A stretch of DNA of 64,000 bases from Clavelina lepadiformis (taxonomy: Eukaryota > Chordata > Ascidiacea > Aplousobranchia > Clavelinidae), in contig NC_135246.1 in the NCBI RefSeq assembly GCF_947623445.1, forward strand, positions 17,467,856 to 17,531,855. The letters are read 5' to 3'. Numbering within the stretch: position 1 is the stretch's first letter; each line of letters begins with the position of its first letter. Under the pieces are notes generated by a model. It was not told the origin of the DNA. It ran no database searches and saw nothing but the letters and a program-made list of their open reading frames with translations. Below are positions 2,029 to 59,817 of the stretch, in pieces. The position numbers were made by a program, and so were the translations under genes.

Positions 2029-4840
2029 ATGTTGTCGCTGTATAATAAAATAGTTCTATTTGTCCTGGCTTGTCAACTGTGCTTTAGCTTGGTCAAGGTA
2101 AGCTTTGCATTTTTAATATAGACTATATAATGCTGTATGTAGACACGCCATGCGTTCCGACGTTCCATGAATGGTGACAGTTCGAATAAGCTCGTGGCTG
2201 AAAACACTACTTACGTAACAAACGTGTCTGCTGGTTGTCCAGTTTTAGGCACAAGATTTCCTGTCACTCGTTCTTATAATCGCAGCTGAAACAAGAACTT
2301 GCTGTATGGGAACGCCACACAGATGTCTTGACGTGTTTCTAGCCAGAGTAAAACTACTTTTGATGAAATCAATTTTTCCTTTTTTTGTAGTTGAATAACG
2401 CACTTCATTTCATAAGAAGTCTTTATTGGGAACTTATTAGTAAACTCAACCCGAAAAATTTTACTGCGTAGTGTAGAAGGTATTCGGCCAGGGTTGAAAA
2501 GAAAACAACTATAAAAAAACGCTAATGTTTGTTCGCTGTTTGCGCTAACAAAAACAAATGAATCTTTTAGCGTTACATATAGCGTTTTTCAACGCGCTAA
2601 GTGGATATAACAAACAAATGAATTTTTGTGCTATAAGTTTCGTAAAAGCTCAATACATAGCGTGCAGGGTGTGAAGTTGATAGCACTACGTCAGATCATG
2701 ACTGCTAATGTTCAAATTTCGTGTGTTAATATGGCTTGGTTAAGAACATGCATTAAATCCCCGTTTTTAATCAAAGAATGACCAATAATTTCGCTTTTGC
2801 ACACTTAACCATGTGAATGGTGGTAAATTGTTCCGGTGGACTGTAAAATCGAAACCAACGTACGGCTTGACGCTGGAACTTTATTATTGTTTTATAATTT
2901 TGTTATACAACTTTTAGCAAAAAGTATTCCTGAGTTTGTGTTTTAAAATTTGCTCTCTTTCAACGAGTTCTTGTTCCGTCACAATTTCCTGTTGAAACGT
3001 AACAACGTCAGAGAAAAATATCTCGTCACAACATTAAAACTTCCGAAAAGTAGGGACGTAGAGAAATGCTGACAAATTTAATTTTGTTTTTCAGGCTTCA
3101 GAGATTTGTGGAAACGGTCGATATTGCACCGGTAAGCATTTACGGCCTAAGGCATTTACGATTACGGTGGAACTGATGAAAGTTTTCAACAACAAAACTT
3201 TTGTTTGTCGTCATTCATTCATACCATGCTGAGTTTCACTGATAATAAAAAGTATAAAATGTGAACGTAAATGTAAACTGCATACGTCACTAGGGCAAAC
3301 TACTGTGTTATGAGTTTAAGTTAAAAACATTTCTGATGTAAGTTACTTAGCATTGGGTATTAAACCCAGATCAACCGTGTATAGCTATAGCTATAGGCAG
3401 GGTTGCCATCAGTCTCAACTCAAAAATAAGGACGACTAGAAAACGAACGAGGAATACCACCTTAAACAGTGTACAACAAGAGAAAGCAACCAATGTTCCT
3501 AAAAACAAAAAAACAAAAAAAAACAAGACACTATCTGCATGTTCATAATTTTGGTATCTCTTTGGTACAAAATGGTATCGTAAGGTGACAAAATGCCCAA
3601 AATAAGGACAAAAGTGCCCACCTCCGCCCTAAAAATAAGGACGAAAGTGAAAATAAGGACATTTCTTAGAAATAAGGACAAATATATTTTCTAAGACACG
3701 GACCTTTAAAATAAGGACAAATCTTATAAATAAGGACGGTATGGCAACCCTGGCTATAGGTTTTTTCCACTCCCTTAACCACGGTTTAACCTTTAAGTTA
3801 AGTTAAGTCCTTTTTTCACGCGCCAGTGGGGAATAATAATGACAAACTGTTTCGCTGCTACACTTGTATGCGCTATGGTGGAACCTTCTTTATCCGTTAT
3901 TTACTAAAACTTTTTTTCATTTTAAGATAGAGGCAGCTCGTCTGCATATTGCTGTAACAGGAATTACCTCGGAAATTACCAATGCTGTTATAGAACCCGA
4001 TACTACACTTCGATTTGGTCATTGTGGTGTAAGTATGCTAGCACCATTTTAAATATGTGTAGTACATGACTATCTCAGCGAGTTTGGTTCGCATCGTTTA
4101 ATCAACTTCCATGAGCTTTCTATAATGCTAAACATTTCCGATGAAAATGTAGAAAGCTGCTATTAGACCAAGTTCGATGTGTTGTAAAGCAGCCGGAAGA
4201 CTGCTCGCTTGGATTCTAATTTTTCATTTTGTAGATTTTTGGTTTGGTCTTGCTATTTTCCTTCTTCTAATATCGGGATGTATCGCCGGTTGCCGACGAC
4301 GACAATTGCGCATGCGCATGCAACAGACTATGCCTCAGACTCATACGGTACACGTTGCCACGGTAACCATGGCGGGACCCGTGGGACAGCAGGTAAATTT
4401 GATTTTGTGAAGAATTTTTTAGTTGAATAAATAACCCTTAACAAGAAAAAGAAATATTTAATTATCAATTTTAGCATCTATCATACCGAATAGCTATTAA
4501 ATATAAAACAAAAAACGATAGCTTTAAGTAAAGAGACATGTATCGTATATTAGTGCAGGTTATTACCAAGTCCAACAAGAAAAACATAAAATACTCTTTC
4601 TTTTCACAGAACCCAGGCTACGTGAAACCAACCAACGATCTGCCACCATCCTACAATCAGATCCAACAGCAGGGAATCTCGTCGCAATTTCAGGAGTTTT
4701 CAAAACAAGAAACCGCTCCACCTTACCCACCGCAAGGTTACGCTCCGCCCCCGTACCCCGCCACTCAGCCCGTTCCTTACCCCACTGCGCAGGGGTTTCC
4801 CCAGCCAACAATGGCTCCTAACCCAGCGCTTAATCACTGA
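2029..4840 (+). CDS. STMC6 (Shisa/CYYR1/VOPP1-like) membrane protein, array copy A
   Basis: Model: exons 2029-2097, 3095-3131, 3927-4028, 4235-4392 and 4610-4840, 198 aa, intron phases 0-1-1-0. Exon 1 encodes a hydrophobic signal peptide. Exons 2-3 encode six cysteines in the order C, C, CC, CC. Exon 3 ends in IWSLW, and exon 4 opens with YFWFGL and the membrane helix, followed by a basic cytosolic stretch. Exon 5 is proline-rich with PPSY and PPPY motifs, the WW-domain ligand type. VOPP1 and WBP1 share this order, including the LWYFW start of the helix; such proteins are thought to act as trafficking adaptors for WW-domain ubiquitin ligases. Function here is inference. An in-frame upstream ATG at 1945 would add 28 residues, but 2029 puts the signal peptide at the N-terminus. 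The exon 3 acceptor (3926) was chosen because it restores the cysteine frame. Confidence 0.82.
3398..3752. mobile_element. hAT-like MITE in intron 2 of copy A
   Basis: 355 bp between short inverted ends (CAGGGTTGCCAT at the left, the complement of ATGGCAACCCTG at the right). It is flanked by a perfect 8-bp direct repeat GCTATAGG (3390-3397 and 3753-3760). The interior repeats the unit AAATAAGGAC several times, mainly in its right half. There is no coding capacity. An 8-bp duplication and CAG/CTG ends fit a non-autonomous hAT-superfamily element. Confidence 0.85.
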
Positions 4841-6055
4841 TTTTTTGTCGCCGATGTTGTGGTGAAATGAGTTGTGCACGCCGGGGAGAGCTATGCATGT
4901 AACAAATCAGTGACAGGGGTCATTTGGAAGGTGTTTTTCGGTAATTGGTTTCATATATCGCTATGAGTTAAAGCACATATACGTTTTCCATGTCACGGTA
5001 AACCATTTTAATATTTTAATTTGACAACGTTGTCAAATTCGTGTGTTTCCGATATTGTTTTTATCATTTACTGAATATTGCAGCCTGTGTACATAACGTA
5101 TGTATTGCTTTCTGCAGCTTTTGTGATTTCACACTAACGCACTTTTTTATGGTTTTGTCCACTTTAGCGATTGTCTACTGCTTTGCTTTAATGTACTGTG
5201 AATAAAACAAATGTTGACATTCCCTTGCACGTGCTTTCTATGGAGTTGTATAAAGCGTGTCATGTTTTGAATTCTTATTCTGATTTTTGTGTCATTTATG
5301 TTGGTCGTTCGTATCACCAATACCCAGCAACCCTATTTACAATAAAGCTTCTCAATAAACTATTAATCTTTGGCCGAGTATATTTAAGTAGTGTCTGCCG
5401 AAACCGGAACCAACCAAACGAAGATTGAAAATCAGTTGCCTCTGAGGTAGCAAGTGCCATTGTCATATTTTATGGACAACGAAAGTCATGCCAAAGCTAA
5501 ATATTTCAGCAGCAACCAGTGTTGTAATGTTATATGGAAGCCGTATGTATAGTCGCTGTTTGCGCGGCTGAATACAAACATGAAAGTTTGTGGTGGCACA
5601 ACAATGTTATAGAACTTGTTCCCAAACGCTTAAAACAAAAAGCGAGAAAATTTTACACTTATTGATTTCGTGAGGCTTGTTTCGTGGCCACCGTCAGTAA
5701 GCTAAGGAATAGCTGTTGGCTTCAAACAAGGATAATTATGAATGTCGAAGTAGGGAATAGTTATGATCGAAACCTGAAAGTCAGGTACAGCAGTGATTGT
5801 AAAAATTTTTCTTTACCGTGGTCTATTAACGATATCAGAAAAAAATTTTGCATCAGATTAAATTTTAAAATTCAACGAAGAATCATTTTATGATCCACGC
5901 AAGTGTTTTAAATCTAAGCGAGATACAAAACTGACTGGTTTTATTAATTATATAGAAATAGTTTGATTCACTGAATTTAATCGTGTGTTTACTAAACATA
6001 ACTCTCAGCAAGTGAACACCCGTCTAAGTAGACCTGAATCGAAAAGTATTTCAAA
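4841..6055. other. Intergenic, copy A to copy B
   Basis: Contains the 3' UTR of copy A with its likely polyadenylation signal at 5201-5206. The rest shows no gene I can support. Confidence 0.5.
5201..5206 (+). promoter_or_regulatory. Polyadenylation signal of copy A
   Basis: Canonical AATAAA about 360 bases after the copy A stop codon, the first good hexamer downstream. Confidence 0.5.
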
Positions 6056-7501
6056 ATGACATTGCTTAAATTCACTTTGGTGACTTCCATGCTTCTTTGC
6101 CAGGCTACAGTAAGTCGTCTTTAAAGTATATTTCTTTCTTATATTTGTTTTGCTTTTGCCATTTAGTCATATTGCGGTTAAATACGGGCATTAGTTGTTA
6201 TCAAAAACTATCTTTATCTGGAAAATATGATGAGATTTAGATTTCTTGCTCACAGATATTTTCATATTCAGTTAATTTGAAACTGTTTCAGAGTCATGAA
6301 GTTTGTAAACTCGGACTTGTGTGCCCAGGTACGTTCACTACCGACCTATTTTACATTCATAAAACTTAACAATTTGCCAACTATCAAAATAAAAACCTTT
6401 CGCCGAAAATGTTTATGACAATGATATTATGTTAATCTCTTACCTTTGATTTATGTACAATTTACGTAATGTACAAACACATACAGACATGGAACTCTTA
6501 AACGGATACTGCTGCGGTTCTCTTTATGAGGATGCTTGCTGCTTTGAAAAGTTAACAATAGTGGATTTATGGTGTAAGTATATGACGGTTTATTAACTAC
6601 ATTACAGTGTTATACTAAACATTGTTAACTATATGCTAACAATTGATGAACAATTCCGCCCATTAACAAGCAGCTATATGCATGTTGTATGACAAATGTA
6701 GAGATAACATGCTCCTTAAGAAAATCCAACACATCACCCTATATCCTGTATACAGTGAATAGCAATCAATAAAATAATTACCTGAACAATTGTTCAGCTC
6801 TCTTATGAGGTTTAGGCGCATAAGATTTAGATTAACTTGAATATCTATCCAAATGACGGAGCAGGACTTTTAAGGGCCAGTTTATACATTGACAGATTTC
6901 TGGGTTGGCATTGGTTTGGCGGTTCTCGTGCTCAGCTGCATCCTCATAAGGATATGGGCATGTGTGATCAACCGACGAAACGTTTACGTAACTCTGACAA
7001 GACCTAACCACCCTAGCGAAGTTGAAATAGAGGTATGGGGGTATTGTTATGGTGTTCTGAGGCCTCTTAACAGCATTACTTTCCAAACCTAGCCCACTGA
7101 ACATATTTTTACATATGCCATATATTATGCCTATACGCGTTAAGTGGCTATGCATAATATGGTATTGGAATTATAACTTACGCCTTTAGCTATTTTGACT
7201 GCCTTAAGTTTCAAAGTTGGGGGTAGAATAACGCTGTTGTAAATGTTGTGTGCAAGCAATTACGAAAAACATGTGATAACAATGAGAAATGAAAAAGATA
7301 TGTACGTTATTGTTAAAACACATACACACTTTTTATTAGGATCATTGCTACGGTTCTATCCGCTACCCACCGCCATATCAACAATCTCAAAGTCAGCCAA
7401 TTGCTGCGAAGGACACAACACAAGTAGTTGTAGAAGGGAACCGTCCACAGGCGTATTGTTTTCGAGGCACGCTGAATGGCGCAGTCGGAGAACCACTTTG
7501 A
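6056..7501 (+). CDS. STMC6-like membrane protein, array copy B
   Basis: Exons 6056-6109, 6292-6328, 6487-6573, 6896-7032 and 7340-7501, 158 aa, phases 0-1-1-0 as in copy A. The signal peptide starts MTLLKFTLVTSMLLC. The ectodomain has the pattern C, C, CC, CC (VCKLGLVCP, YCCGSLYEDACC). Exon 3 ends in DLW, and exon 4 opens YFWVGIGLAVLVLSC as a membrane helix followed by basic residues. The tail holds PPPYQQ, a PPxY WW-binding motif, and ends in a non-proline segment unlike the siblings (VGEPL). Its exon 2 is 37 nt, as in copies A, D, E and F. A membrane adaptor role is inferred from the family. Exon 5 is too short and unusual to be found as a long frame, but phase and the PPxY motif support it. 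Confidence 0.78.
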
Positions 7502-7584
7502 TTATGTCTGACGTCTAGCTATTAGGCATAAGCTTTATTATTCAATTTACATTTTTCTTTTTACGTCATATCGTCCTATTAAAA

Positions 7585-7590
7585 AATAAA
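7585..7590 (+). promoter_or_regulatory. Polyadenylation signal of copy B
   Basis: AATAAA 84 bases after the copy B stop codon, with a second AATAAA a few bases downstream. Confidence 0.5.
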
Positions 7591-7845
7591 TCAAATAAAA
7601 TATAACGCTTGAAATAAACAATTTCTCTTGCAACTACTGCAATGTCGTCGGCTGAAAGCGCCGGATCGTTTAAGTAGATTTTTGACAGTGGAATATAAAC
7701 TCTAAAACGTTCCTGATGGGTTGAACGTTGGCAAAGAAATTCACGTTTATTCTGAAACTATTCAAAGCGGAGCTAAAGGCCACAAAAAGATGGTTTGAAA
7801 TGTACGATTGCTGCGTGGCTGCAGGTGCACACAACTAAATCCTTG

Positions 7846-8495: not shown

Positions 8496-9836
8496 ATGGG
8501 AGAGCTTATGAAAACTTCCATTTTGACATTGTGTTTTTGCCAGTTGTTTTTGCCTTTGACGTGGGTAAGTCGATCAAATTTACCGTTACTTACTAATAAA
8601 ATAACTTAAAACGACAATCATTTATACCTTGCATTGCGGTAAAATAACATACTTTTGGAAATTATACCTGTGTGGTTTTGCTTCTTATGGGTTGATGAAT
8701 GTTTTTCCATCAAACATTTAATCAAAATTGCAGCATATGCTGGAGGGAGGAATATCATTATCGCCTTGAAATTTAGCAGTAACGAAAGCATTTTAATGTG
8801 TTGCAGGCATATGACTTTTGTTACAGCAGAACTTGTTATGGTGAGTATTTTTACGGCACAAAGTTACGTTTTTTAAAGGTTTTTTAAAAAAAATTTTTGC
8901 AGATAAAGGAAGCGAAATCGGTTATTGCTGCGAGTTCTATGAAAATACATGCTGTTACTACACAGCAGTTTGGGGCCTGTGGTGTAAGTGTAATAAATTA
9001 GTACAGTTTTTCCAGAAGCCTAAACTTACGAAACATTCACCATCAAATTTGCCTGTGTATTTGACTCCGTTCGTGCATTCCTGCTAAAGTACAGTTATAT
9101 ACTATATAAGTCACAGTAGAGGTTCTATATGATGCGTTACATTTTGTGACAGATTAGTTAAGATTGGAGCTACTGTTCCTATGCTGAACAACGTTGTATG
9201 CCCTAAATAACATCTTATAAATCTTTTTCAAAACAGATTTCTGGTTTGGAATCATCTTGTTTGTTCTTTCAATCATTCTATTAGTCGTCAGGATCTGCTT
9301 CATACGTAGTCTGCGTCGCCGTCAACGAAATCTTCACGTTACCACGGTGACAACGCAGCAAACCGGAATACCGGTAAGACAGTTAAAACGTCCTGCACAG
9401 GCTGAAGTTAAGATATAAGAATATAATAAAAGATATAAATCGAGCTGTTTTTTATTTATTTACCATAGCTGTTGCATAGGTCACAACAACCACTGTGGCA
9501 TGGGTAGATATGCCTGGTCCCGCTACGTACTTCTTTATGCTGGTTTTAGCACTATAGTCGGCTTGTACCGCTTTTAATTATCTATGATTTTCCAAATTGT
9601 TTTTGCTCTTAAATTTTTAGAACCCGGGGTATGGTGGAACAAACACCAGCAACGACTATCCACCTTCCTACCAACAAGTTCAGAAGGACTACTTTACTGG
9701 AAATAAAAGCAATCCGTCACAAACTGGAAATGTGTATGCCCAACCACCTTGCACTCCGACACCTTATCCAGTCCCACCTGGCTTGACCACCCTACCAGCA
9801 GCCCCGTATCCCCCGCCAACACAAAATCAATCCTAA
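8496..9836 (+). CDS. STMC6-like membrane protein, array copy C
   Basis: Exons 8496-8564, 8807-8840, 8903-8983, 9237-9373 and 9621-9836, 178 aa, phases 0-1-1-0. It starts MGELMKTSILTLCFC, a signal peptide; Met5 (8508) is an alternative start. Exon 2 is 34 nt, one codon shorter than in the siblings, giving FCYSRTCY. Exon 3 has YCCEFYENTCCYY, completing six cysteines, and ends GLW. Exon 4 begins YFWFGIILFVLSIILLVV, the membrane helix, then arginine-rich residues. The tail starts NPGYGG and contains YPPSYQQV, a PPxY motif, plus further Pro-Tyr pairs. The shared architecture and close neighbours show tandem duplication. An adaptor-like role in trafficking or ubiquitination is a family inference only. 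Confidence 0.82.
9480..9503 (+). other. Possible 24-nt cassette microexon of copy C
   Basis: Within intron 4 of copy C an AG acceptor (9478-9479) and a GT donor (9504) bound 24 bases in phase 0. They would add VTTTTVAW, which resembles the thr/val-rich end of exon 4 in the sibling copies. Low confidence; no splicing evidence. Confidence 0.2.
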
Positions 9837-12492: not shown

Positions 12493-14138
12493 ATGGGAAC
12501 ACATTATCTGACCTTATGCGCCTTTGCACTTACCTGCGGCTTGGCTTCGGTGAGTGGTTTTAGAATCATAGACAATTAAGTTCATGTTAGTAACGATTAA
12601 TGACGGTGTTTTTCCATCTGTTATGCTTTATGTTTTAATACAAAAATATCTTTCATATAATGATTGATGCCAGCTGTTATAGCGCTACATTTTAAATGGT
12701 GTCTGGCGTAAATAACTTTCTTGGTGCAAATACAATACATACAGTGTGCACTCAAAGAAATACTAATAAACGACGGTCAATGGAATAAGTTATAATAATC
12801 TTATCATAATTTATTATAGCCACGTTTCTCAAATCATAATGTTATAGTTAATGGAACGGTTTGGTAGCGTAATTTTGTGTTGTCAGCGACTAGCTTTTTC
12901 GGACTGTAACAGCTCTGTTTGACATAAAAAACCGTCTAATTAAAATGGTAGGTTGGTAGGCGACAGGCTATATCTCACAGTAACTTTATTGTACAATTAA
13001 GCCTTATCGTAAACCTATGTACACCAAATATGGAAGAGAACTTCGCTATGTGCGTTATCGACCAACCTATTTGCTTTAGTAAATACTCATTGCGAAATAC
13101 AAAATTACATCAGGTGACCAGGTTTACAACCTGACGTATATTTGTAATCACTGTTGCGTGGATACTGTCAAACTGAAACATTGTCAATATTGTTTTTCTC
13201 GCAGGCCACTGATTATTGTGGAGACGGATTTTATTGTCCAAGTGAGTACAACGATAGTAATACATAATGTCACTACGTTTATCGAGAAAATTTCGGTTTG
13301 TCCAATTGTATAAAATTTTAAAAGAAAAAAAATGCCAGAAAATATTTACAGTGAGTTAAATATACTTCTGAAATATTTCTCAGATTCCAACACCTACTGC
13401 TGCGGCTATTATTACTGCTGCACTTATGTTTACGCTTTATGGTGTAAGTATTGTTTTGAATAAATTTGGGTCGTTTTCTGCTAATCTATGCCAAACACTG
13501 TACAATAAACACATAATTAATAAACCAACATCACGTAGAAATGTTCTGAAAAGCGATAACACGTTTAAATTAGCGTCTAAGTATTTGTACCTTTAGTGAG
13601 TACATGATGTTTTGATTTATTTTTGTCTTTGTTAAAATAAATTGAAATATGGTAGACTTTTGGTTTGGATTGGTGTTGGGTGTTGTCTTTCTGGTGAGTT
13701 GTTGTTGTGCTTGCATACGCTGCATGAAAAAGCCCCAGCCGCAGGCCCAGACTGGCACGATTCACGTGGCGACCACTACAGCAACAGTACCTTACCCCGT
13801 TGGGCAGCAGGTATGACAAACCATTCTCTATAACCTACTCTTTGCTTTACATTTTGCCTTTTTTTTTCTGTCAAACGCTATTTTGTTTTAATACATTTGC
13901 TGTTCTATACTTTGCTGAGGTCACTTTGTAAACTATTAACAATGCTTTGTTGTAGAACATTAGCTATGTCGACAACAACACGCCCCCTCCTTATCAATCA
14001 CAATACCCACCACAGCAATATGGAATGGCTGGAATGCAACAGGTGAACGAATCAAAAATGGCGCCGCCAGACTACACTACTTCGTCGGCCAACAATCCAG
14101 CTCCGTTGCAGCCAGTAACAACAAATTATGGCGCCTAA
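12493..14138 (+). CDS. STMC6-like membrane protein, array copy D
   Basis: Exons 12493-12549, 13205-13241, 13384-13443, 13656-13810 and 13956-14138, 163 aa, phases 0-1-1-0. Signal peptide MGTHYLTLCAFALTCGLAS; the mature part begins ATDYCGDGFYCP and continues with YCCGYYYCCTYVYALW, giving the six-cysteine pattern. The helix YFWFGLVLGVVFLVSCCCAC is followed by a short basic stretch and the conserved IHVATTTATVPY. The tail has TPPPYQSQ (PPxY) and the looser APPDYTT. Exon 3 is 60 nt here and in copies E and F, against 81-102 nt in A-C, so D-F form a subgroup. The open frame continues upstream of the start, but Met at 12493 begins the signal peptide. Confidence 0.85.
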
Positions 14139-15296
14139 TTTCATGGCGCTTCTCATATGGCCTTTATTTCGACTGAATGTTGTAATTATGCTACATGCTT
14201 ATTAGGGTGATGTTTTTGTTAGAAATTGATAACATTACTCTGATAACTCAACGCTATTATGCTTCTGCGTTTATGCTTCTTTTTCTTGCTTGGCTTATTG
14301 AAATGCTTCGTTAACTTTCTTCTTCAACGTGAATCAATAATATTAACATTGTTTTCTACCTTAAAGAATTATAATCGAGTGTGCCAAGATGTTTCTATAC
14401 TTGAAGACGTAGGCTATAGGTCAGTTAGAGACAGTGAATAGGAATAAGACGAGTTGACGTGATAAGACAATGAATGAAGATAGAACATTTTAACCAGCTG
14501 TCCATCAATGTCGAAACAGAAAAAAATTGGTTGTCATGTTTCCGTAATTTTGAATACTGTACGTGTAGGATTGCTTTATAACATAATTACACCTGCGTTG
14601 TCTGTTGTAAAATTGATTACAAAAAATCAAGTTGATCGAAATTAGATTTTCTCCTTTAACAGAGGCTACTCTATCAGTTTGGTGTGACATAATGCAATTC
14701 ATTAACTCTTCTCTTTCGTATTTGGAAACAATCTTTCAGGATTCTTATTCAGGACAAAAATTAAGGTGACGTTTGACGTCATAATATTAGGTGCTATTTG
14801 GTTTTCACGAGACAGACAAACCGACAGCGCGGCATATATTTTAACTCATGGTTTTAAAGGGGGTGGTGGCCAAATTGTTTTGTAAAAGTCAGAAATGTAT
14901 ATTTCAAGAAGCACGGGACACAAAGAGCAGATCATTATAACGTGCAGTTGATTTTTTCACAAATAGACGGCGTTTTTTAGTTCGAGTCGACACTGTGCAG
15001 ATAAGCCAGCAGTATCGAGTGTATAGAAGGTGCTGTGGTATGCGAATTTTCACATAAATACTATTTTCTACTGGTTATAGCGAGACAACTCCATACAACA
15101 AAAACATTAAGGTTACTGGTTCCTTTCAGAGGCATTCGGCGAAGGTACTGAAAGCCTCATTCAGCGGGACAAGAATTTTGGGTGCATGCTGGATGAGTGC
15201 TGTGTGACTCCTGGCTAAAGTGCTGTTCCCTGCAGGTGCATATGAGAGGGCCAGCGCGTGGATAATTTGTTACCGTTGAACAAAGCAACCTGTTAC
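14139..15296. other. Intergenic after copy D
   Basis: 3' UTR of copy D and AT-rich sequence. No supported gene. Confidence 0.5.
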
Positions 15297-15624
15297 CAGT
15301 GTTTCTCAAACTTTTTGCGATCGCGTACCACTCATTCGTTTTTTTTACTACACTGCGTACCACCTGGCTCCTGAATGACTTATTTTACTCAAATGTACCG
15401 GTATTTGTAGTTATTACCGTTATTACTATACCATAACACCAATGAATAGCAAGAAAACACAATTTAATTTGATAGAAGCAACTGTTTCTTCTGCACAAGC
15501 TTGTCTATCCGGGGCAACCCATTACTCACAGCACATCGAAAATCATGTTCAGCGGTACGCGGTACCACTTAAAAAGCTCTCGCGTACCGCTAGTGGTACG
15601 CGCACCATAGGTTGGGAACCACTG
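15297..15624. mobile_element. Old hAT-like MITE
   Basis: 328 bp with imperfect inverted ends: left CAGTGTTTCTCAAACTTT, right ending GGTTGGGAACCACTG, with matching CGCGTACCACT motifs just inside each end. There is no coding sequence. The flanking 8 bases match poorly, so it is older or eroded compared with the other MITEs in the window. Confidence 0.7.
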
Positions 15625-21066: not shown

Positions 21067-22707
21067 ATGAGAGCATATTTTTTGGCCTTTACATGGGCAA
21101 TTGGCCTTTCCTGTGATTTGGCTTCGGTAAGTAGTTTCACTAACTTATTATTATGTGCATACATAGACGTATACGTTTACACACGCATTTACTTCGACTT
21201 AAAACAAAGTTTCCAATTTTTTTTGTTTTCTTAATGCGGTAATCTTGTTCATGCTATCTTGTGTCTTGTTACCTAATACCATATACCTCTTTCTATTACG
21301 CTAAAATTTAAATATTGGTTATGATAGACCTACAACAAACCGGTCAATTCAGGAATTAGAATGTTATTGAAATTTTGAGAGATCGTCATAAAGTTTATGA
21401 TCATATACAGAATGTTTTAGAGTAGAAAGAGCATTACGGACACATTACGCAGACATTACGTCAAGCATCCGCTTGTGACCTGGTTTACGTGGTGACGCGA
21501 ATTTAATTTTTCTGTCCTTTCATGCATCGTAGTAAACTAATTTGATTCTAACTTTCTTGCAGGCCGTTGAATACTGTGGGAGTGGATATTATTGTCCAGG
21601 TAAGTACACAATTTTGTTACATTTCATTTCAAAATATATCAAATAATAAAAGAAAGCGTTAAACAAAAAATTTTGAACTCTCACTCAATGGCAAAAAATT
21701 TTGCAACTTACTAAGTTCTATGCTTTTCAGTTTCCTCCACGTACTGCTGTGGTATATTCTTATGTTGCACTTACGTTTGGGCTTTGTGGTGTAAGTATTG
21801 CCTGTATGTATTTTATCGAACATATGAATACTTCAAGTTTTTACTTTGAACAACTACAACCTTTACAGTAGTAAATAGTAGGGGGTATTTATATTTATCT
21901 TCCGACTGAGCAAAACCTTTGGCGCAAAACTTAAACTTGGCGATGACTCCTTACCCCTTCAGCTTCGGTTACCGAGCTAACCTTTGTTCAAATAGTTCTA
22001 TGGAAGCAAACTTTTTGTAAGTTTCTTGTGCTCTATTGTTCGGTTTGCAAGAGCAGTAGATACATTGGGTACAACGGTACAATTTCTGCCAAGTACCTGC
22101 TCCATTACTTTCAAAGTACTGACTGCCCAACTCTGTCAGTTTACAAGAACAGTAGCATTAAACATCAGCAAAAGTTATCATTGCTTTGTCCAGCAAGTCC
22201 GTCGCCTCCCTACTACATCACAAAGTGGACATCGTAAATCTTTGTTTTATTCATTCGGTATTTTGAACCATCAAACCTTTGGTAGTCGATGACGTAATAC
22301 TTTTTGCTGAGATTTCTCGAACTATGGTTTTCTAATTTAATGCGTGTAATTTTGCATAAAAAATAATGTTGCATTTTAATAAATACACCATAGGGTAATT
22401 GAGCTATATGCTTTATGGGGCGTGCGTTCTCTGCCTTCTCTTATGTTGTCTGCTTTTTTATTAATAAAAGTTTCTCGTTTCTCGAACCGTTTTTGTCGCA
22501 GATTTCTGGGTTGGAATCGTTTTGGGTCTTATCGCTATTGGGTCTGTCGTCTACATCTGCATTAGAACGAAGAACCAACAACAGATGCGAAGCAACCCAG
22601 TTCACGTGGCAACCGTAACGACGGCCGTTCCTTATAACGTGCCAGGACAACAGGTAGGCAGGCATATCGTTGAAGGTCTTTGGCCTGCATTGCAGCAAAG
22701 TTTGTGA
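21067..22707 (+). CDS. STMC6-like membrane protein, array copy E, no PPxY exon found
   Basis: Exons 21067-21126, 21563-21599, 21731-21790 and 22502-22653, phases 0-1-1. Signal peptide MRAYFLAFTWAIGLSCDLAS; ectodomain AVEYCGSGYYCP and YCCGIFLCCTYVWALW with six cysteines; helix start YFWVGIVLGLIAIGSVVY; then VHVATVTTAVPY ending in GQQ before a good donor (gtaggc). The siblings splice here to a proline-rich PPxY exon, but I find none between 22654 and copy F. Reading through the donor gives 18 more residues to a stop at 22707 (120 aa total). So this copy may make a tail-less protein, or its last exon may have diverged beyond recognition. Intron 3 is long (about 710 nt) and contains frames I judge to be chance. 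Confidence 0.72.
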
Positions 22708-22870
22708 AACTTCTTATAATTTTTCTCACTTCTACACGAAGAAATGAGATCAAATTAGTCGTTTTTAACTAACCACTGTATAGAGTATAGACTATATCCT
22801 ACACTGCACGTGTATTTTCCATTTCATGTACAAACGTGTTTATGACAGTTAGGTCCAGTTGTCACCTCAC

Positions 22871-22973
22871 CAACACTAATGCACATCGATGGGTCTAAGT
22901 CGGCGCCAATGGCGTTCACCACTTCTCCAAACTGAATAGCCTGGGCTCTTTCCCATTGAGTAACTGTGCTCAT
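22871..22973 (-). CDS. Orphan coding-like exon
   Basis: On the minus strand a start codon in good context at 22973 opens 34 complex codons (MSTVTQWERAQAIQF...DPSMCISV) followed by a strong donor (gtgagg at 22870). I do not recognise the protein, and no continuation exon is evident at lower coordinates, where copy E lies antisense. It could be the first exon of an unseen gene, a relic, or chance. An AG just upstream could serve as a cis or trans acceptor. Confidence 0.3.
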
Positions 22974-24647: not shown

Positions 24648-27600
24648 ATGGAAACATACCTTCTGGTCATATGCACATTAAGTCTTTTCTTCGGCGGGGC
24701 TTCGGTGAGTATAGTCTTATTATTATCATGTTATATCAGCTTTGAGTAAAGGCTTTGTTCGTAAAAATTGTTATAATTTCACGAAAAATCTGTCTGCATG
24801 CAGCGATCAAGTAAGTAGATTTATACTGGTTTTTGCGTTGTTTTCTTTTTACGTATCGCTATATAGTTTCACTATATATGAATACCTCAAATACAAATAA
24901 AAGATTGTATAAACAGTCCTTTGTGCATTACGTGATATATGAGGGGTTTTATCAAGGCAAAATATGTAAAGAGCAAATTCGCCAAAAAACCACACTGTTA
25001 TTTTGTTAAACACTTTAACTAAACACGAAAAGTGAGGCCTAAAAGAAACGCCTAAAGTGGTTACATGTTTAAATCGCACATGTTTATTCTGTTTGGTGTT
25101 TAAATGTTGTACGTGTTTACTAACTAGGTGTTTATTATCTTTGGTGTTTATGTTTAAATGTTGTACGTGTTTACTAACTAGGTGTTTATTATCTTTTGCG
25201 TCTAGTCATTTGGCAGTCAAAATTTCCAAAAGAAACGTTTATTAAGGTACAATCACGAAACAGAAAGGAAACAAATCACAAAAACAAGGCAGGTACAGAA
25301 ACACGGGCGCCGCAATTAGGGCACGTACTATTGACAGGGGGCATAATTCTAAAAAGGGCAAAATTCATAATGTTACATGTTCATATTGCTTCTCAAAGAA
25401 GACGTATTTGGAGGACTTATGATAACCACACAGACTATCCTTCAACAGATGAGCTTGTAAAAAACCCAAAATAGGGTAAACCTTTGGGTATTGCAATTGC
25501 CAAGCATAATAACAACCGATAAGTTGCATTAAATAACCTAACACCACCCTCGAATCGTTGTTACATGTGATGTGAATTGAATCAGCAACAATGAATGCTT
25601 GCATGGTTCCTGCTTCGTTGTAAGAAACAAGCAAACTTGGCGGTGTTTTCTTTCTGGAGTTTAAATTAATCCGAAATGCCTAAAAAATTAAAACAAAAGT
25701 GTCAATCTATACAAATTGTTATGTGAAGCCACCAGTTAAATGAAGCAACTACAACTCACATCAACAGTCTGAATTGTATCAAACAGATTTGTTTTGCGAG
25801 TCGGCTGAAGTTGTTTTTGTAACCTCAAAAAAAGATTAAGTTCATCCTGTTGTGATGGATCCTACAAAAATTTTGTTAGGTTAATACACCATTTAAAATG
25901 AATTTATAATTTATTCAATATATATCAAATGTCTCAAGATCTGAACGCATTGTTCTTCAACAAAGCATAAGTAATAAACTAGCACACAAACAACCAACTT
26001 TTTGTTAATTGCTGCATGAATGCTTAGATTGCTCACCTCAGTTTCATCGCATTGCCGCTCAACATTGCTGTTAAATATTTTGTCAAGTGTTGTTAGCATG
26101 ATTACATAAGCCTCTTCTATCGCATTGCAATCATATTCATAAACGTTTTTGAATTCTTCCTCAATCTGCATAATTTATCATCATATCAATAACCATGTCG
26201 CAGCTTCCAAACATGATCTACAACTGTAATCCTGTACAAAAGTATCAAAATCTAAAACATCTTATCATAGTTTCTCTCAGAGACTTACAAAAGGCATGTG
26301 GCCCAATAATGGAAACTTTTCAATGATTTCACTGACGCAACCATCTTTCATTAAACGAATTGCTTCTTGTCGAAAGACAGCATTGGCATTAAATGCCTGT
26401 TTTAGTAAACTATACTCCCATTCTGATTCTTCCTTTTGTAATTGTTGTCTAATAAATTCAGCCGCCTTTTCTTTTGTCCATTCTGAATCTACAGTAATTA
26501 CAAATATAACACGGCATGTGCAGTCTACATCAAAATTAGTTCAATATATCCAATAATATAAATTTTATGTGGATCAAAAATATATAATTCTGCATCACCT
26601 GCCACTCTTTGCAGCTGAAGGAAACCTAACGATGCGGATCGTTTACCATGTGATGGCACAGGTGGATGGCTTCTCTTCCACCGTAAATTTCTAAGCTTTT
26701 CTGATAACTTTCTACAGAAAAAGCCCTTAAAGAAATAGTTTAGTATAAATTGTTATAGCCTATTAAGTACAAAAATATTTTATAATATAGGAAATTTATC
26801 ATTACAGTGTATTGAAAACTTTTTCTTTAGGCTCCATACATCACTAATTATGTCTTCATTCTACTAATTGATTAAAGCAGCAGTTTTCAAACATTCTTCA
26901 CTCAAAGCACATCCGACACTAAAGTTTCAGGACAAACCTTGCTGATTTAAAAATTTTCTTACTACTAAATGATCAAAATGAAATGTTTACCCAAGGTTTT
27001 GCTCTAGAATCAGAAGTTCCAGAAAAGTTTAAAGAGGGGTATCTTTTCAGCATTTGCTTTCCAAATGCCTCATACTCAGACTTTGTCTTGATATCACCAT
27101 TAAATAACAAAAAAGAAGCCGTTTCTGCAACAACCATATGGAAATTTTTTTTATCTATGACAGGTGCAGCAAGGATAAGCTCAACTTCTTCTTTGAATTT
27201 AGGTAAAACCATGGTATAGCTCTCAAAAGCAAGCACATCCTCATTAACGTCAGCAATAACTTCAGTATCTCTGCTGTTTGAACATTGTGATTCATATGAC
27301 ACCTGGAAAGATAAAGGAAAAATTCTAAGCAATAACAATAATTCAGCTTTGAACTGTCTCAGTTTAATTCCTGATCTTATTCAAAGTTTGAAAAATATTA
27401 ACAGGTGACACTCTAGTACTTCTAGACCAGTGGTCCCCAACCTTTTTGTCTCCGCGGACCGGTCTACGTTTGATAATTCTACCGCGACCCACTAAAAGGG
27501 TGGGGGAGAAAAATACTCTTGAATACTGGCTAAATAACCCCAGCCTGTGAAAATAAAAGTTTGCGCGCCTCCTAAAAAACTGAATGTAACAAACTTACTC

Positions 27601-30600
27601 TCCTGATTAAAGGGCATCGGGCAGTTAGAATGGGCAAGGGATACTAAATTAGGGATACTGAGACTAGCTGATACACTCAAGATAACAATTCAAGAATTTT
27701 AGCATAACAAGGGCTTGTGATGTAATAAACTAAGGTTATTATGCGATAAAATGGCCTCTCCAGACAATCGATTTCGAGAACTCAAGCGTGCCTACGCAAC
27801 AAAAGGGGTTCCCACACTAATTAACAGTACCCTGTGCGGACCGGTACCAACTGACCTACGGACCGGTACTGGTCCGCGGACCGGGGGTTGGGGACCACTG
27901 TTCTAGACCACTAGACTACTTCTGTTTGCGTTTCCATAAACACAAGCAATTTTTTCACTATTCCCACTTTCCCTGGATACATCAAGCGTAAATCACTTTC
28001 AGTAAGTTTTTTAAAGGCAAGTTCGTCAACCTCGTTCTCTGCAAACATGGAAATAATTTAAATTCAATTTGTAAAATTTGAAAATTATTAGAAAGTAAAA
28101 TTTAATGAAAGTTGCAAGCAATGCAGATAAAACATGATGACCATTTTGATACTCTACTAAAAAATAGTCACTTATGTATTTGCAAGTTAAAAGTACGTCG
28201 AAAATTTCTACAACCCACTCAAACGTTTACTGTATTAAAAATAGTAACATTTCCAACACAATGATCGATTCATTATCTTGGGAAGCTGGAAATACTGTAA
28301 ATTGAAAGGGCAGCAATGTAATTATCTAACTGAGCCTGCAAATATGGCTTCACTACTGTATAAGATAAGAAAAGCATATTATTTTGGAAAACAATCTTCT
28401 CCAAATTATACTGGAAGTAAACCTAACTAAGATTGGCTTTTTAATCACTCCAAACCCTACCCACATGTTGCATCATAACAAAAGTCTTGTGCTTAGCGCA
28501 ATGCACTAATTGTGGCCAAACACAGAAAGATTTTGCAAGCAACAAAAATGAAGTAGATTCTGAACGCAACACTTCAAAGCAATTCAACTCACGACAAAAA
28601 TCACCAGTAACAAGATCATTACAAAAAAAGCAAGTCACATCATCAATAATGACAATTTCTTTTAATTCAGTAAACTCAGGAACCTCAGTACCCTGCTCAC
28701 TAGAGAAATCTTTTAACAAAACTGTTCCTCTCCTATATGTTATCCCGTGAATTTTAACTTCCCCAACAAAGAGAACTCTTTCCAAAGTGTTTCCAGGAAA
28801 ACCAGCATCAAGCATAAAAGTCAATAGTTGTGGTAAATTGTTTTCGATTTCTTCCAAAGTAACTGTTCTTATTTTAGAATTACAAACTTGGTGATCGAGA
28901 TAATTTTGGCAACGAAGACCTGATTCATCTATCATATTACAACACATCCATTTTTGGTGAAAAACTGACAAGCTAAGCGGTAAATTTATGAAGTTGAACC
29001 ATTTCTTCTGTTTGAAAAAGCCATTTTTGGCTTCAAGTCTCATACACCAGTGATAACGAAGTGGCCCAAACAAGCGCATTTGCTCTCCAAGGTGCACCAT
29101 ATAGTGCATTTTTGGTGTGAAGGAATGGTCTGGATAAAGCATTTGCGTAACATCAATATATGTAGCTACGAGGCACTCCAGCTCTACAATTGTGTCCTTG
29201 TACACAGTGACAGATGTGCATAGTTGTACAATTTGTAGTAACCTAATAAAATTCATCCAATTATTATTTTGTGGAGGGATCCAGTCAACAACAAAAAATG
29301 GTAGCAAATGCATCAAGTTGAGCATACTAGCAGCTGTTTGAGGAAAAGTAGAACCATCCAGTAAATGCTTCTTCTCAATTATCTGTGGCTTGTCCAGGCC
29401 CTCTTCTACAGAATACTCAAAAAACTCAATGCAGTGATTAAATTGCTCCAAAGTGAAATATTTTTTCTCAAAAATCAAATATAACATCACATGCTGCACT
29501 TCTGACTTGCAAACACCTTCCAATAAAATATGCATAGGGTCTTGCAAAATACATTGACAAATATCAAATCCAGGAATATCCAAAAGGAATGATGATTTTG
29601 TTATACCCCATTGAGATGAATAGGCTGTCCTTTGATCTGCCATGCCATTTAAACTAACTATTCTCGAAACATGCTCACTGTGCGTTCGTAACGGGCATCT
29701 TTGATGCTCTAAATAGCTGCTTAAAGTAGCTCTGGTCACGTTACATCTTCTGCATGGGCAATTTGCTGCACCAACTCCCTCTTTGAACCCACCCATTGCC
29801 TGTGCTGCTGGAGTGTCTCCCACAGCATAGAGTAACAACCCCTGAAATAACCTTTGTTGACCTCCAACATTTAAAAGAACACCATTATACAACTCTATCA
29901 TGCTCTGTACGAAATCTTTTAGCATCATCCCAACGGCATCAAACTCCTTGATATCCTTAGATTTACCCAAACAAAGTAACTGTATTAATTTCAACTTGTT
30001 TCTCACGTAAGGGGGTAAATTCAACAATGTCCAATAGTAAACAGTAATTTTATGCTTCTTTCGGTATGACCCGATAGGATTAACTATCTCAAAATCATCT
30101 GTATACAACGAGAAAAGCAAACAGCTAACACTACTTCTCATTAACTCATGACTTTGCCAATAAGCACCATCTCCAATGTCAACCAATCTATCAGCAAAGC
30201 TTTGTGTTGTGTTTGAATTTAAGTGGCTCAAGACTTCTGGCATATTAAGTAAAGAAGTGAGCTGAGATAAAAATGGTACATAATACACCTTTACAGGTTG
30301 GCGAATTCGCTGAACACCAGACTTTCCTTTTATATTTTTGTACTTTGCACCAATAACTGCAGCAATCGGTTTCACAAAACCAAAATGATTTGTAAAATAC
30401 TCCTCTTGTGAGCTTTTAGTCATCAGCCTATCGAAGGAACAGCCGATTTTATTAGGATTCGCAATAGCATTATTCATGGAGGAAATTTTCTTCTCAATCA
30501 AGCAAGACATTGACTTTAAAATATCTTTTACAGCGCTTTCACTTGATTTATGGAAGGTGAGAAGTTTTAAAATAAATGCGGCTTCATTACGCAAAGAGTC

Positions 30601-33600
30601 TGTTTGACTATAAGAGCCAGTGGGAGCAGTATTCATCATAAAGGTATTAACTTCAGGTAAGTCCATATCCTGTTCATTGTTATGAACATTGCTGCTAGAT
30701 TGAATATGGTATCGTTGGCAATGGTTTAAAAACTGCTTATATTTTGTAAACCGTCTCCTGCAGTCCTCTGCACCGCACTGATAAACCAGGTTCGAGTCAC
30801 GATGTTTCTTCAATATGTGTTTGTTTAAATTTAAGCGTGACAAAGCAGTATGAGAACAAAACATGCATGAATAATTATTTAACGATGTCATAAGGCTAAA
30901 AGGAAACTACAAGTCCACCACTATTAAGCTAAATCAATGTTATCCCTAAATAAAAAGTGCACATAGCAAAAAACAATCTTGAAAAAAATCATAATACTTT
31001 GGAAGTAGACAGCAATTTTACCAGTGTTGTAGCTTAACATAACGGAATAGATTAATAAATTTTCCTGTTTTGTGTTGGACAATAGGAAACAATAGGCATA
31101 CCTTACAAAGAAAATAACCAAAATACATCTCACGCTGTTTTATCAACTTCACTCATCAAGGTTAATTTTAATGCATATATTTAAATGGTGTACTATTTCC
31201 GATCGCATAAAATGGATCGCATAAATGGATTGGATATAAAAGATCTGTGCAAAAAGCTACAAAGCAAATTATTCTTTTGTTTCATTTTAATTAATAGGCC
31301 TATACATAGTTTTAATTATGTATGGGAATTAAACGTTTGCCTTTATCAAATATTTCATATCTTTGGTCCAATTTTTAAAAGCAGTCATTTTGCATTGGAC
31401 TCATGCTAAACTAATTGCCCATTGTTAACATTCAGAGTATTTAGGCCCCTTATTTGATCATGTTAAACATGTGTGAAAGTACAAATGGTCACTTGTGGTC
31501 GTTCATCAAGACTAGTGCAAATCATCATGCTTGGTTTACAGTTCTTAACATAACTTAAGTTTAATTTATTTTCTCAAATGCATTCTAAGATATAAACTTT
31601 ATTTTTATCTGTTAGGTGTCAACCTGTTCTATCAACCTATAATACATATATAGAAAACTGTAGACTAACACAGCACTACAGTAGAAAGTTTGCAAAAGGA
31701 GACGTTGGTTTTGCTGTATCTGCAATTTGGAACATATCCAAACTTTAAAAAATATATGCCGCTTGATATGATTGTAATATACACAAGCGCTAGGCCTATA
31801 GCATCTGCATTTTCCTTGTTACATGTCGTAACCGAAATCTACTTCAGTTACTCATTTTGCAAACTTTCTAGTGAAGTACAAGCACAGCAAACAAAGTACA
31901 GCTTAGCTTTCATGGTCTTAGCCACCTCTACTGAAAAGTTAGCATTTACTAGTTTTTGAAATATACCATCACAATCCATGATAGAAAGGTAGTTTACCGT
32001 ATGATATATGATAATGTATACGTTATTCCAAGGAGTGCTGGCCTGCACAAGGAGAAACAGCTTAACAGACTCTTTCCGGGTTTTTGTCTGAGTGACAAGA
32101 TTAGCCACCTGAGCGAAACCTTTGCAATGCAATGTCTAGGCTACAACAATTGCAATTTGAAAAAGAACCAAAGAGGGTCAACAATTTTCACTGAGGGTGT
32201 AGGACAACACTAATCTATAAAAATGCGCAAGCAAAAACATTGTAACAATAGGCTACGGCGCTACACAATGCCTTAAAACAATTCGCTGTCTGCATATGTA
32301 AGCTCAAAATGGATTTAGATTTTACAGCCTGTAGCCGGCTGAAGCTGGTATATGCGCGGACACATTTTTGACAATGGTGGAATTTAACATGTTGTTTCAT
32401 ATAACTTAAAGCAATCTAGAAATGGCAAACTTGTTGGATAAAAAGTAAATATAAAATAATTGCGTATTCCAATATAAAAAAAACGTTTAATGTTACGAAA
32501 GCATTTTTAACTTCTTTATTTTAGGTTTGGAGTTATTTAAACATGAAAGAAATAGTAATATCCTATTTTTTTCAGTTGCATATTCTAGATTATATGAACA
32601 AACGCTGATCTGACATTTCACACCATTAAGTGGTGATAAAGACTTTTCTTTAGCCTTCCAATCGAAAGGCGACGAAGATAACGCATATGTTTGGGTATGC
32701 CCGAGTGATTTTAAACTTTGATGGGCAAAGCGTGATAATTGGTCTCTCACTCTCCATTCCTGGGTGAATGGCTTTACTTAAAAACCAATTACAGCCAAAA
32801 ACATATGATGAAATATGGCCTACAGTAACGCCTGAACAATACAATTTAGTGCTCAGCCACTCCATACAGGAAAAATTTCAAAACGATTTTAAGTTGCCAA
32901 TGTTTTATTCCATTGTCCAACTTTAAACCTAAGAATTGAGTTCGACATATAAATCTATATACTGAACTATAGTTCGTGTAATTGGGTAATGCGAGCAAGT
33001 CTAAAGCATTTGGCTAGTACCGAAAAAGGTGCCCTTGAACTATTAGTTTTTTAAAAGGAACACGATCAACACTAAAAAAACAAAAACATTGGCATACGAC
33101 GATCGACCGATGATATAAAATTAAACCCGCGTTTAGTTAGGTATAGAAAAACTAATAAATGTTCTTGCTTTGGCTGAATTATTCAAGCCATTTAAACTTA
33201 TTCTGCTGATGATATATATTAAAATATGCTTAACTTGCGATCCAAACCGAAAAAACTGGTTCCAACTTGAGCCACACAATTGGAAAATATGTATATGATT
33301 AAAAGCAAATATAAAATGTTTTAGATATATTCTTTCTAAAGTAACTTAAAGTATAAGTTATGATTCAATAAAACTCATTAAAATAAACACATTCCTCCTA
33401 AACGCCTTTTGGTTTGACACATTTTGTAATCTTTGTGTTATGTGTTTAACATTTAAACGCTAAAAGCGTGGAAAAAGTGTAGAATAGGCATAAATCATTA
33501 CTAAACGTGTCATGGATTGTGGTGTTTAACCCATAAAGTGTTTAAATTTTGTCAAATTAACAAAATTTATACACTTAAACACATAATTAAACACTTTAAC

Positions 33601-34842
33601 ATGTTTAAAGCGGTAAAATTGTGTTTAAATTTTAAACACATGAATGACAGTGCATAACTGAAAATAAACGGTGAAATATTTTTCGTCGTGTGCTGATAAT
33701 TTCAAACTCACTGCATGCGTGAGTACGTATATATGCGTCAAACGAATCATTGCCAGAAATAAATTAACGTCATACTCTATTGTAACTTGATTTACAACGT
33801 TACGCTTATGTTTCACTGTGATTGTATTGCAAACTACCTGATTTTTTTTCTATTTTCTTGCAGGCCTATGACTACTGCGGCGGTGGAGAGTACTGTCCAT
33901 GTAAGTATCGAAATCATATAACATGGAATAAAATTTTAAGAAAACTTAGTAAATCATATTTACATTATAAAAGAAAAACGTCAATTGAAAAAGTTTATAA
34001 TCAACCTACACTAAAAAACTTTGTTGACAACTTTTCAGATGACAACACCTACTGTTGCGGTAACAGTCATTGTTGTACCTACGTTTGGTCTTTGTGGTGT
34101 AAGTATTTTTTCACCTATAGGAAGATTTGCAGTGTTATTTGCATGCAAGGCTCCCTATTAATCGACGTATATGGAAAATTTATCATCTAAAATCACAAAT
34201 CAAATCAAAAATAATTACTTACGACGCTAGTTATTTCACTCCCCCTTTTTCTCTATTAAAATACTTTGATGTTCTAGATTTTTGGGTTGGTATTGTGGCG
34301 GGGGTCATACTACTCATAAGCTGCATTTCGGCCTGCGTTTGCCATGTTAAAAAGAAAAATCAAAGGCAAGTACAGACTGAAACTGTTCAAATAGTACCAG
34401 TTCCTTACCAAACAGAACAACAGGTAAGCCAATATATATTTGGGTACAGTTTTTGTTTAACTTCTTAGATTATTCAACATTTTGTAATTAAATTTTTGAA
34501 ATTTAAATTTGTCAATTTGATGAAGTTTTTTTCTTGACTTTGAAACTAAAATTGATAAAAGTTTTATTGCAGTTGGCATAACAAGCAACAGCATATAAAT
34601 GCCTGTCATATAAAACCTTAAGGTAGAATTAAAGTTGTACACAAGTGATATGCAAGTTTGGGTTTTAGTTAAAAAAAAATTTTTTTTTCGACTTCTGGTT
34701 CTGCAAAATGTTCGGATTTTTGTTTTGTTAAAGTTCGCGTTGGTATCCTTGCATTATCCACAATGATATGTTTTAAGGTAGGCTACCAAGATTAGTTTCT
34801 GTGCAGAATCCCAGCTACGTCACCGAAACTCAGCCACCATAA
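24648..34842 (+). CDS. STMC6-like membrane protein, array copy F, tail cut short
   Basis: Exons 24648-24704, 33864-33900, 34039-34098, 34278-34423 and 34807-34842, phases 0-1-1-0, 111 aa. Signal peptide METYLLVICTLSLFFGGAS; ectodomain AYDYCGGGEYCP and YCCGNSHCCTYVWSLW with six cysteines; helix YFWVGIVAGVILLISC; then VPVPYQTEQQ. The last exon reads NPSYVTETQPP and then a TAA stop (34840-34842) exactly where siblings have the tyrosine of PPxY. The same frame stays open after it to a second stop at 34960-34962 (40 codons, Pro/Gln/Ser-rich, LPPTEY), as expected of a tail lost recently. Intron 1 is about 9.2 kb because a CACTA transposon occupies it; without that element it is about 500 nt, like the siblings. 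Assignment of exon 1 across this intron rests on phase and the shared ending GGAS-AYDYC. Confidence 0.7.
24993..25200 (+). repeat. Left terminus and subterminal repeats of the CACTA element
   Basis: Begins CACTGTTATT and contains repeated TTAAACAC/GTGTTTA motifs. A 54-bp unit starting TGTTTAAATGTTGTACGTG occurs twice in tandem (25097 and 25151). Confidence 0.75.
25365..28048 (-). CDS. Transposon accessory protein with SAM-like segment
   Basis: Exons (5' to 3') 28048-27920, 27302-26991, 26725-26599, 26488-26289, 26165-26037, 25861-25760 and 25679-25365; 437 aa if Met at 28048 is the start. The start is uncertain: an AG acceptor at 28040-28039 could instead join an earlier exon. The N-terminus FAENEVDELAFKKLTESDL and KVGIVKKLL resembles the C-terminal half of a SAM domain. 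The next exon has KRYPSLNF and KPW, then KLSEKLRNLRWKR, and the last exon has IGCYYAWQLQYPKVYPILGF. This order recalls SAMD3-like proteins that accompany transposases in fish and other animals. I know no proven biochemical role; a DNA-binding or regulatory partner like plant TnpA is inference. All seven exons are in phase. The nested MITE lies in its first intron. Confidence 0.68.
27428..27900. mobile_element. hAT MITE nested in the CACTA element
   Basis: 473 bp with inverted ends CAGTGGTCCCCAACC and GGTTGGGGACCACTG, followed inward by GGACCGGT-type repeats at both sides. Perfect 8-bp duplication TTCTAGAC at 27420-27427 and 27901-27908. Non-coding. It lies in an intron of the accessory gene, so it arrived after the CACTA element. 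Confidence 0.93.
28441..30891 (-). CDS. C2H2-finger DDE transposase of the CACTA element
   Basis: One uninterrupted 816-aa frame. Two C2H2 fingers at the N-terminus (Cys9, Cys12, His25, His30; Cys39, Cys44, His57, His62). The catalytic core resembles the TNP2-like/CACTA group of RNase H-fold transposases: GDTPAAQAMGGFKEG near residue 360 (first Asp) followed by a CPCRRC cluster near 380, LQDPMHILLEGV near 450 (second Asp), then a helical region and FGPLRYHWCMRLEAKNGFFK near 605-630 (Glu). The C-terminal 180 residues are Cys-rich and unplaced. Role: cuts and joins element ends, acting in the nucleus. An AG just before the ATG suggests a spliced leader exon. The intact frame implies possible activity or recent arrival; host domestication is less likely given intact element ends. 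Kinship to KDZ-type transposases is the alternative. Confidence 0.88.
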   Translation of the reverse strand: MTSLNNYSCMFCSHTALSRLNLNKHILKKHRDSNLVYQCGAEDCRRRFTKYKQFLNHCQRYHIQSSSNVHNNEQDMDLPEVNTFMMNTAPTGSYSQTDSLRNEAAFILKLLTFHKSSESAVKDILKSMSCLIEKKISSMNNAIANPNKIGCSFDRLMTKSSQEEYFTNHFGFVKPIAAVIGAKYKNIKGKSGVQRIRQPVKVYYVPFLSQLTSLLNMPEVLSHLNSNTTQSFADRLVDIGDGAYWQSHELMRSSVSCLLFSLYTDDFEIVNPIGSYRKKHKITVYYWTLLNLPPYVRNKLKLIQLLCLGKSKDIKEFDAVGMMLKDFVQSMIELYNGVLLNVGGQQRLFQGLLLYAVGDTPAAQAMGGFKEGVGAANCPCRRCNVTRATLSSYLEHQRCPLRTHSEHVSRIVSLNGMADQRTAYSSQWGITKSSFLLDIPGFDICQCILQDPMHILLEGVCKSEVQHVMLYLIFEKKYFTLEQFNHCIEFFEYSVEEGLDKPQIIEKKHLLDGSTFPQTAASMLNLMHLLPFFVVDWIPPQNNNWMNFIRLLQIVQLCTSVTVYKDTIVELECLVATYIDVTQMLYPDHSFTPKMHYMVHLGEQMRLFGPLRYHWCMRLEAKNGFFKQKKWFNFINLPLSLSVFHQKWMCCNMIDESGLRCQNYLDHQVCNSKIRTVTLEEIENNLPQLLTFMLDAGFPGNTLERVLFVGEVKIHGITYRRGTVLLKDFSSEQGTEVPEFTELKEIVIIDDVTCFFCNDLVTGDFCRELNCFEVLRSESTSFLLLAKSFCVWPQLVHCAKHKTFVMMQHVGRVWSD
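30892..33400. other. Non-coding 5' part of the CACTA element
   Basis: About 2.5 kb upstream of the transposase without a supported coding exon. It presumably contains the transposase promoter and untranslated exon. Confidence 0.45.
33400..33652 (-). repeat. Right terminus and subterminal repeats of the CACTA element
   Basis: Roughly eight copies of GTGTTTAA or TTAAACAC in 250 bases, ending in the complement of CACTGTCATT at 33652. The density matches the left end. Confidence 0.75.
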
Positions 34843-34962
34843 CACCATTATCAACCTCCACAACAGTACGGCATGGACGGGAGCAAGTTGCCGCCAACAG
34901 AATATGCAGCTTCGTCAGTCAATAGCCCAAGTTCTTCACAGCAAGCAGCTAATCCTCTTTAA

Positions 34963-41960: not shown

Positions 41961-44729
<2,769 letters not shown>

Positions 44730-50955: not shown

Positions 50956-59817
<8,862 letters not shown>

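Follow-up and report, generated by a model that had tools for sequence, protein, structure and literature searches.

The Shisa-like superfamily (STMC6) is described as being marked by six cysteines in the pattern C*C*CC*CC and by a motif of four aromatic residues near the membrane, at the transmembrane domain (PMC5578492). Among its members, WBP1 and WBP1L (OPAL1; Pfam PF11669) combine an ectodomain of this cysteine pattern with a tail carrying L/PPxY motifs, WBP1L being reported as a palmitoylated protein which binds ligases of the NEDD4 family and regulates the ubiquitination of CXCR4 (PMC6991692). VOPP1 (ECOP), which has been placed in the same superfamily and is compared here by description only, is reported to bind WWOX through PPxY, as are WBP1 and TMEM207 (PMC6125347). 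CYYR1, which consists of a signal peptide, a cysteine-rich domain and a helix, is reported to carry three PPxY motifs by which it binds WWP1, and to drive WWP1 to lysosomal degradation (PMC11399591). Shisa proper (Shisa1-9) shows the same cysteine pattern together with an adaptor role; in deuterostomes, Shisa genes are reported to have expanded independently, and Shisa proper is reported to be lost in Ciona intestinalis (PMC7653359). In the current work, a stretch of 64,000 nucleotides from the ascidian Clavelina lepadiformis (NCBI RefSeq assembly GCF_947623445.1, contig NC_135246.1, positions 17,467,856 to 17,531,855; this whole stretch is referred to as the window) was found to contain a tandem array of six genes, designated g1 to g6, the products of which are like WBP1/WBP1L in their cysteine pattern and, in g1-g4, in a tail with PPxY, and like CYYR1 in having a cysteine-rich domain and a helix. 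The array is a new tandem expansion inside a known family, and a modest one; it does not occur among the literature matches listed for STMC6, Shisa, WBP1 or VOPP1, or for ascidian and tunicate relatives.

Spliced models of the six genes, all located on the + strand between positions 2029 and 34842, yield open frames in each case and are composed of five exons each (Table 1), with GT/AG ends at all 24 introns, intron phases 0-1-1-0 in every gene, and an invariable donor after exon 3 (T before the junction, GTAAGT behind it). When the window was searched by tblastn with nine family proteins (the six array proteins included), exactly these 30 exons were matched at E<=0.01, with no further family site in the window at this threshold, while in the 50 kb upstream of the window the six array proteins gave no match below E 0.01 (the best being 0.020). 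The alignment of the six proteins contains 15 invariant columns, which include the six cysteines of the ectodomain, the LWYFW run (and thereby the four-aromatic motif WYFW at the transmembrane domain) and one cysteine at the inner end of the helix; the superfamily cysteine pattern is present in all six. The sequence-only reading of this DNA, which had proposed a shared exon plan, six cysteines and an aromatic helix start, is thus borne out on these points. The LWYFW run is presumably similar to that of VOPP1.

Table 1. Genes of the array and other features of the window, in positions counted from its first nucleotide
Feature	Position	Strand	Description
g1	2029-4840	+	198 amino acids; exons 2029-2097, 3095-3131, 3927-4028, 4235-4392, 4610-4840; two PPxY, one NPxY
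g2	6056-7501	+	158 amino acids; exons 6056-6109, 6292-6328, 6487-6573, 6896-7032, 7340-7501; one PPxY
g3	8496-9836	+	178 amino acids; exons 8496-8564, 8807-8840, 8903-8983, 9237-9373, 9621-9836; one PPxY, one NPxY
Duplicated segment	11298-16003		4.7 kb with all of g4; copy on contig C5, 22331414-22335817, in two pieces at 90.1% and 93.9% identity
g4	12493-14138	+	163 amino acids; exons 12493-12549, 13205-13241, 13384-13443, 13656-13810, 13956-14138; two PPxY
Collagen-like, secreted-looking protein frames	16340-18552	-	between g4 and g5; Pfam Collagen 14.7 bits, below the cut-off of 27.2
g5	21067-22935	+	131 amino acids; exons 21067-21126, 21563-21599, 21731-21790, 22502-22653, 22849-22935; short tail without PPxY
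g6	24648-34842	+	111 amino acids; exons 24648-24704, 33864-33900, 34039-34098, 34278-34423, 34807-34842; no PPxY, one NPxY
Transposase-like frame in intron 1 of g6	28441-30906	-	DUF4218 27.4 bits, above its cut-off of 27; Plavaka 22.5 bits, under its cut-off of 26.3
Open stretch after the g6 stop	34843-34962	+	resembles the g4 tail by eye; no PPxY either
Short-chain dehydrogenase, DUF1674 protein, IMP dehydrogenase/GMP reductase exons	42866-43162, 46626-46967; 52840-53118 and 55481-55729 (-)		

Hydropathy, from which the helix was assigned, reaches a peak of 2.25-3.01 behind LWYFW in each of the six proteins, as expected for a single transmembrane helix. A second peak above 1.6 is located at the N terminus of g1, and an additional one of 1.66 at residue 38 of g5, where it adjoins the helix. 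The first exon appears hydrophobic by eye in all six, with only g1 passing a crude 19-residue hydropathy cut in this region. The ectodomain comprises only about 30-45 residues, and the tail is variable. Two classes of cysteine spacing are distinguished, as taken from the alignment (g4, g5 and the copy of g4 on contig C5 carry an extra cysteine in the putative signal peptide): C-4/5-C-9-CC-6/9-CC-7/11-LWYFW in g1-g3, and C-5-C-6-CC-4-CC-5-LWYFW in g4-g6. These classes would be in keeping with successive local duplication. In the weakly resolved protein tree, g1, g2, g3 and a relative on contig C7 are separated from g4-g6 and the C5 copy.

Homology among the six was assessed by leave-one-out profiles, in which a profile built from five proteins scores the sixth. 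Considering that the resulting scores range from 63.0 (g2) to 122.7 bits, and that the best of 300 shuffles for each reaches at most 11.0 bits, the resemblance is not due to chance. With respect to the curated Pfam cut-offs (28.1 bits for WBP-1, PF11669; 22 for Shisa_N, PF13908; 31 for CYYR1, PF10873), WBP-1 is exceeded by three of the six, namely g4 (38.6 bits), g5 (29.4) and g6 (39.6). Shisa_N passes its cut-off in none and is listed for g2 only, at 13.8 bits, and CYYR1 is listed for none of the six at E<=1. Comparison of the array profile with solved structures returned four sequences, all of them fragments at E 0.7-1.3, and the resulting likeness to the amyloid precursor was rejected as a chance likeness of helices.

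The same genome (209 Mb in 95 contigs) also harbors a WBP1-like gene on contig C5, where the genome-wide Pfam search placed WBP-1 above cut-off at 22419019 (40.8 bits), and where the modelled exons 3-4 of the gene, which runs from 22418724 onwards, score 73.9 bits. The protein encoded by this gene scores 25.2 bits with the array profile, as compared to 5.4 for the best of 300 shuffles, hhalign assigns the pair a probability of 96.7%, and both array and WBP1-like gene contain a phase-1 intron which separates LW from (Y/W)FW, after TGG-T. Since the WBP1-like gene has its intron at the same place, the constant exon-3 donor most probably represents a splice site that is old in the family, and not a feature peculiar to the array.

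Copies of the family outside the array were found on both C5 and C7. The segment containing g4 (Table 1) is duplicated on C5, which is not the contig of the array, and this copy of g4 has retained its five exons with intact splice sites, one PPxY of the two, and a WBP-1 score of 32.1 bits; its CYYR1 score of 16.7 bits is below the cut-off given above. The window version of the segment carries, at 15295-15624, an insertion of 330 bases which is absent from the C5 copy, and the ends of which we take to resemble a hAT-type short element. Between g4 and its copy, which form the one recent duplicate pair, nonsynonymous (dN) and synonymous (dS) divergence amount to 0.055 and 0.057 by NG86, or to 0.061 and 0.044 by YN00, and because exons differ by 5.3% and introns by 6.1%, the divergence of the pair is overall near-neutral so far. 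The copied segment is located about 83 kb from the WBP1-like gene, which may be chance, and the examined part of C5, 140 kb in all, yielded no other family member below E 0.01. The relative on C7, about 1.2 Mb away on the minus strand, has exons 2-5 in the plan of the array, one PPxY, and a score of 72.9 bits with the array profile, its exon 1 not having been found in the stretch examined. All such family copy counts are lower bounds, since the genome search scores only the best candidates.

Several observations weigh against a WBP1-type reading of the array. Three of its genes are under the WBP-1 cut-off: g3 scores 20.9 and g1 12.8 bits (the C7 relative, at 20.2, is under it as well), whereas g2 has no WBP-1 row and finds its best Pfam match in the subthreshold Shisa_N just mentioned, and the best match of g1 is TMEM52 at 15.6 bits, also below cut-off. 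The WBP1-like gene on C5 is without the additional phase-1 intron that splits the cysteine region of the array, the boundary behind its exon 4 is of phase 1 instead of 0, and it has W where the array has Y in LW(Y/W)FW. Two of the six genes do not possess PPxY. Finally, the tree is weakly resolved, with five of its six inner branches open, and the long WBP1-like row in it is found on the g4-g6 side. On the other hand, the cysteine and aromatic pattern is present throughout, WBP-1 is recognized in half of the genes, and both a profile link and an intron are shared with the WBP1-like gene, so that the STMC6-type membership and the local expansion proposed by the sequence-only reading are retained. 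We therefore consider it about 80% probable that the six genes are tandem paralogues belonging to the WBP1/VOPP1-type branch of the Shisa-like (STMC6) superfamily, and that they encode adaptors which would recruit ligases of the NEDD4 family, this function being suggested by their relatives.

According to this preferred reading, each product would be a type I protein, as predicted from its sequence, with a small ectodomain probably held together by disulphides among the six cysteines, a helix that starts with LWYFW, and a cytoplasmic tail. By analogy with the reported binding of CYYR1, WBP1L and VOPP1/WBP1/TMEM207, the PPxY motifs of g1-g4 most likely serve to bring ligases of the NEDD4 family to membranes, and may serve WWOX-type binding. 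The products of g5 and g6, in which neither PPxY nor LPxY is found, could not recruit ligases via PPxY; they would have a different mode of action, such as that of non-recruiting competitors, or else be decaying. NPxY, which is present at the start of exon 5 in g1, g3 and g6, is an endocytosis signal in other proteins. An array of paralogues with and without the ligase-recruiting motif represents a natural set for separating the roles of the ectodomain and of PPxY.

The alternative that fares best, unlikely as it is, regards most of the array as relics, i.e. decaying duplicates of which g5 and g6 would be the first, g6 being broken by a stop and by a transposon-filled intron. Exon 5 of g6 contains a TAA at 34840-34842 which is in frame and cuts the tail short. 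As the sequence-only reading had passed over this stop, it placed the end of g6 wrongly at 34962, which is the next in-frame stop. The TAA looks recent, because the frame behind it is still open and resembles the tail of g4, or else it is a polymorphism or a sequence error. Intron 1 of g6 is 9159 bases long and includes the transposase-like frame on the opposite strand, and, together with the lack of PPxY in g5 and g6 and the near-neutral divergence of g4 from its C5 copy, this would agree with decay. However, all 24 introns have kept GT/AG, exons 1-4 are open in all six genes, the cysteines and LWYFW are invariant, the protein branch of g6 is short (0.16, in a weakly supported tree), and dN/dS between g6 and g4 is 0.16 (NG86, at a dS of 2.24), all of which speaks against this alternative. 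As a separate observation, the same intron contains, at about 27426-27905, a stretch with inverted ends, CCAGTGGTCCCCAACC ... GGGGACCACTG, which we take to be like a hAT element.

It is improbable that the array encodes lineage-specific receptors for immunity or cell recognition, a role which the sequence-only reading had suggested, and that selection has diversified their ectodomains. An array of paralogues would fit such a role, as would the similar dN and dS of the g4 pair, and 5 of the 19 residue changes of this pair fall within residues 20-36, the first half of the ectodomain, which makes up 17 of the 163 residues of the protein (hypergeometric P 0.03, post hoc). None of the 19 affects the 20-residue core that surrounds CC..CC..LWYFWFG (P 0.07, the region being chosen post hoc). 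Across the six genes, however, the two ectodomain exons each show a mean pairwise identity of 0.32 (cysteine pairs excluded), as compared to 0.29 in the helix and 0.30 in the tail; the values are 0.91 for LWYFWFG, 0.37 beside the membrane and 0.28 in the signal region. The ectodomain is therefore as conserved as helix and tail, in addition to being small, and the idea that it changes especially fast finds no support. Among g4, g5 and g6, dN/dS over exons 1-4 remains below 1 (0.16-0.29 by NG86 at a high dS of 1.28-2.24, and 0.41-0.50 by YN00). Of all 28 pairs examined, 15 gave no dS by NG86, and most of the others a high dS. The g4 pair is near neutral as a whole, and the WBP1/Shisa-like family is not known to include an immune receptor. 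Diversification driven by the ectodomain was accordingly rejected, the region identities giving it no support and the g4 pair only a weak post hoc signal, and no evidence for a role in immunity or cell recognition was obtained from these comparisons.

Equally doubtful is a division of the array into opposed sets, in which g1-g4 would bring ubiquitin ligases to clients and g5 and g6 would occupy the same clients without recruiting: the presence of PPxY in four of six, the retention of the six cysteines and LWYFW by g5 and g6 in spite of its absence, and the NPxY of g6 would suit it, but the g6 truncation looks recent and may be decay, polymorphism or sequence error. More remote still would be its extension, whereby g1-g4 recruit ligases to client membrane proteins, g5 and g6 shield the same clients, and the balance of paralogues sets the turnover of receptors in this lineage.

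Some weaker matches in the genome were left out of the family count. The stretch C3:2870914-2871168 (WBP-1 23.2 bits, below cut-off), in which an LPSY motif occurs, is a possible further Shisa-like gene; C2:1944609 (E 2.8) is represented by a tblastn row only, and C8:4598158, C7:19909797 and C6:19804508 have E values of 0.24, 0.64 and 1.79, respectively. C6:6578635 (E 0.73) was rejected as a family member, as its DNA by eye resembles another gene. Rfam returned 0 matches, a bacterial promoter scan over 201 bases was uninformative, no match to COX1 was found in the assembly, and three frames between g4 and g5, other than the collagen-like ones, gave no Pfam match. Downstream of the array, the stretches 36913-37554 and 39201-39842, at a distance of 2.3 kb from each other, are each matched by the same places on C5 (in the stretch from 22418724), at 88% and 96.5%, and constitute a repeat with a copy on C5.

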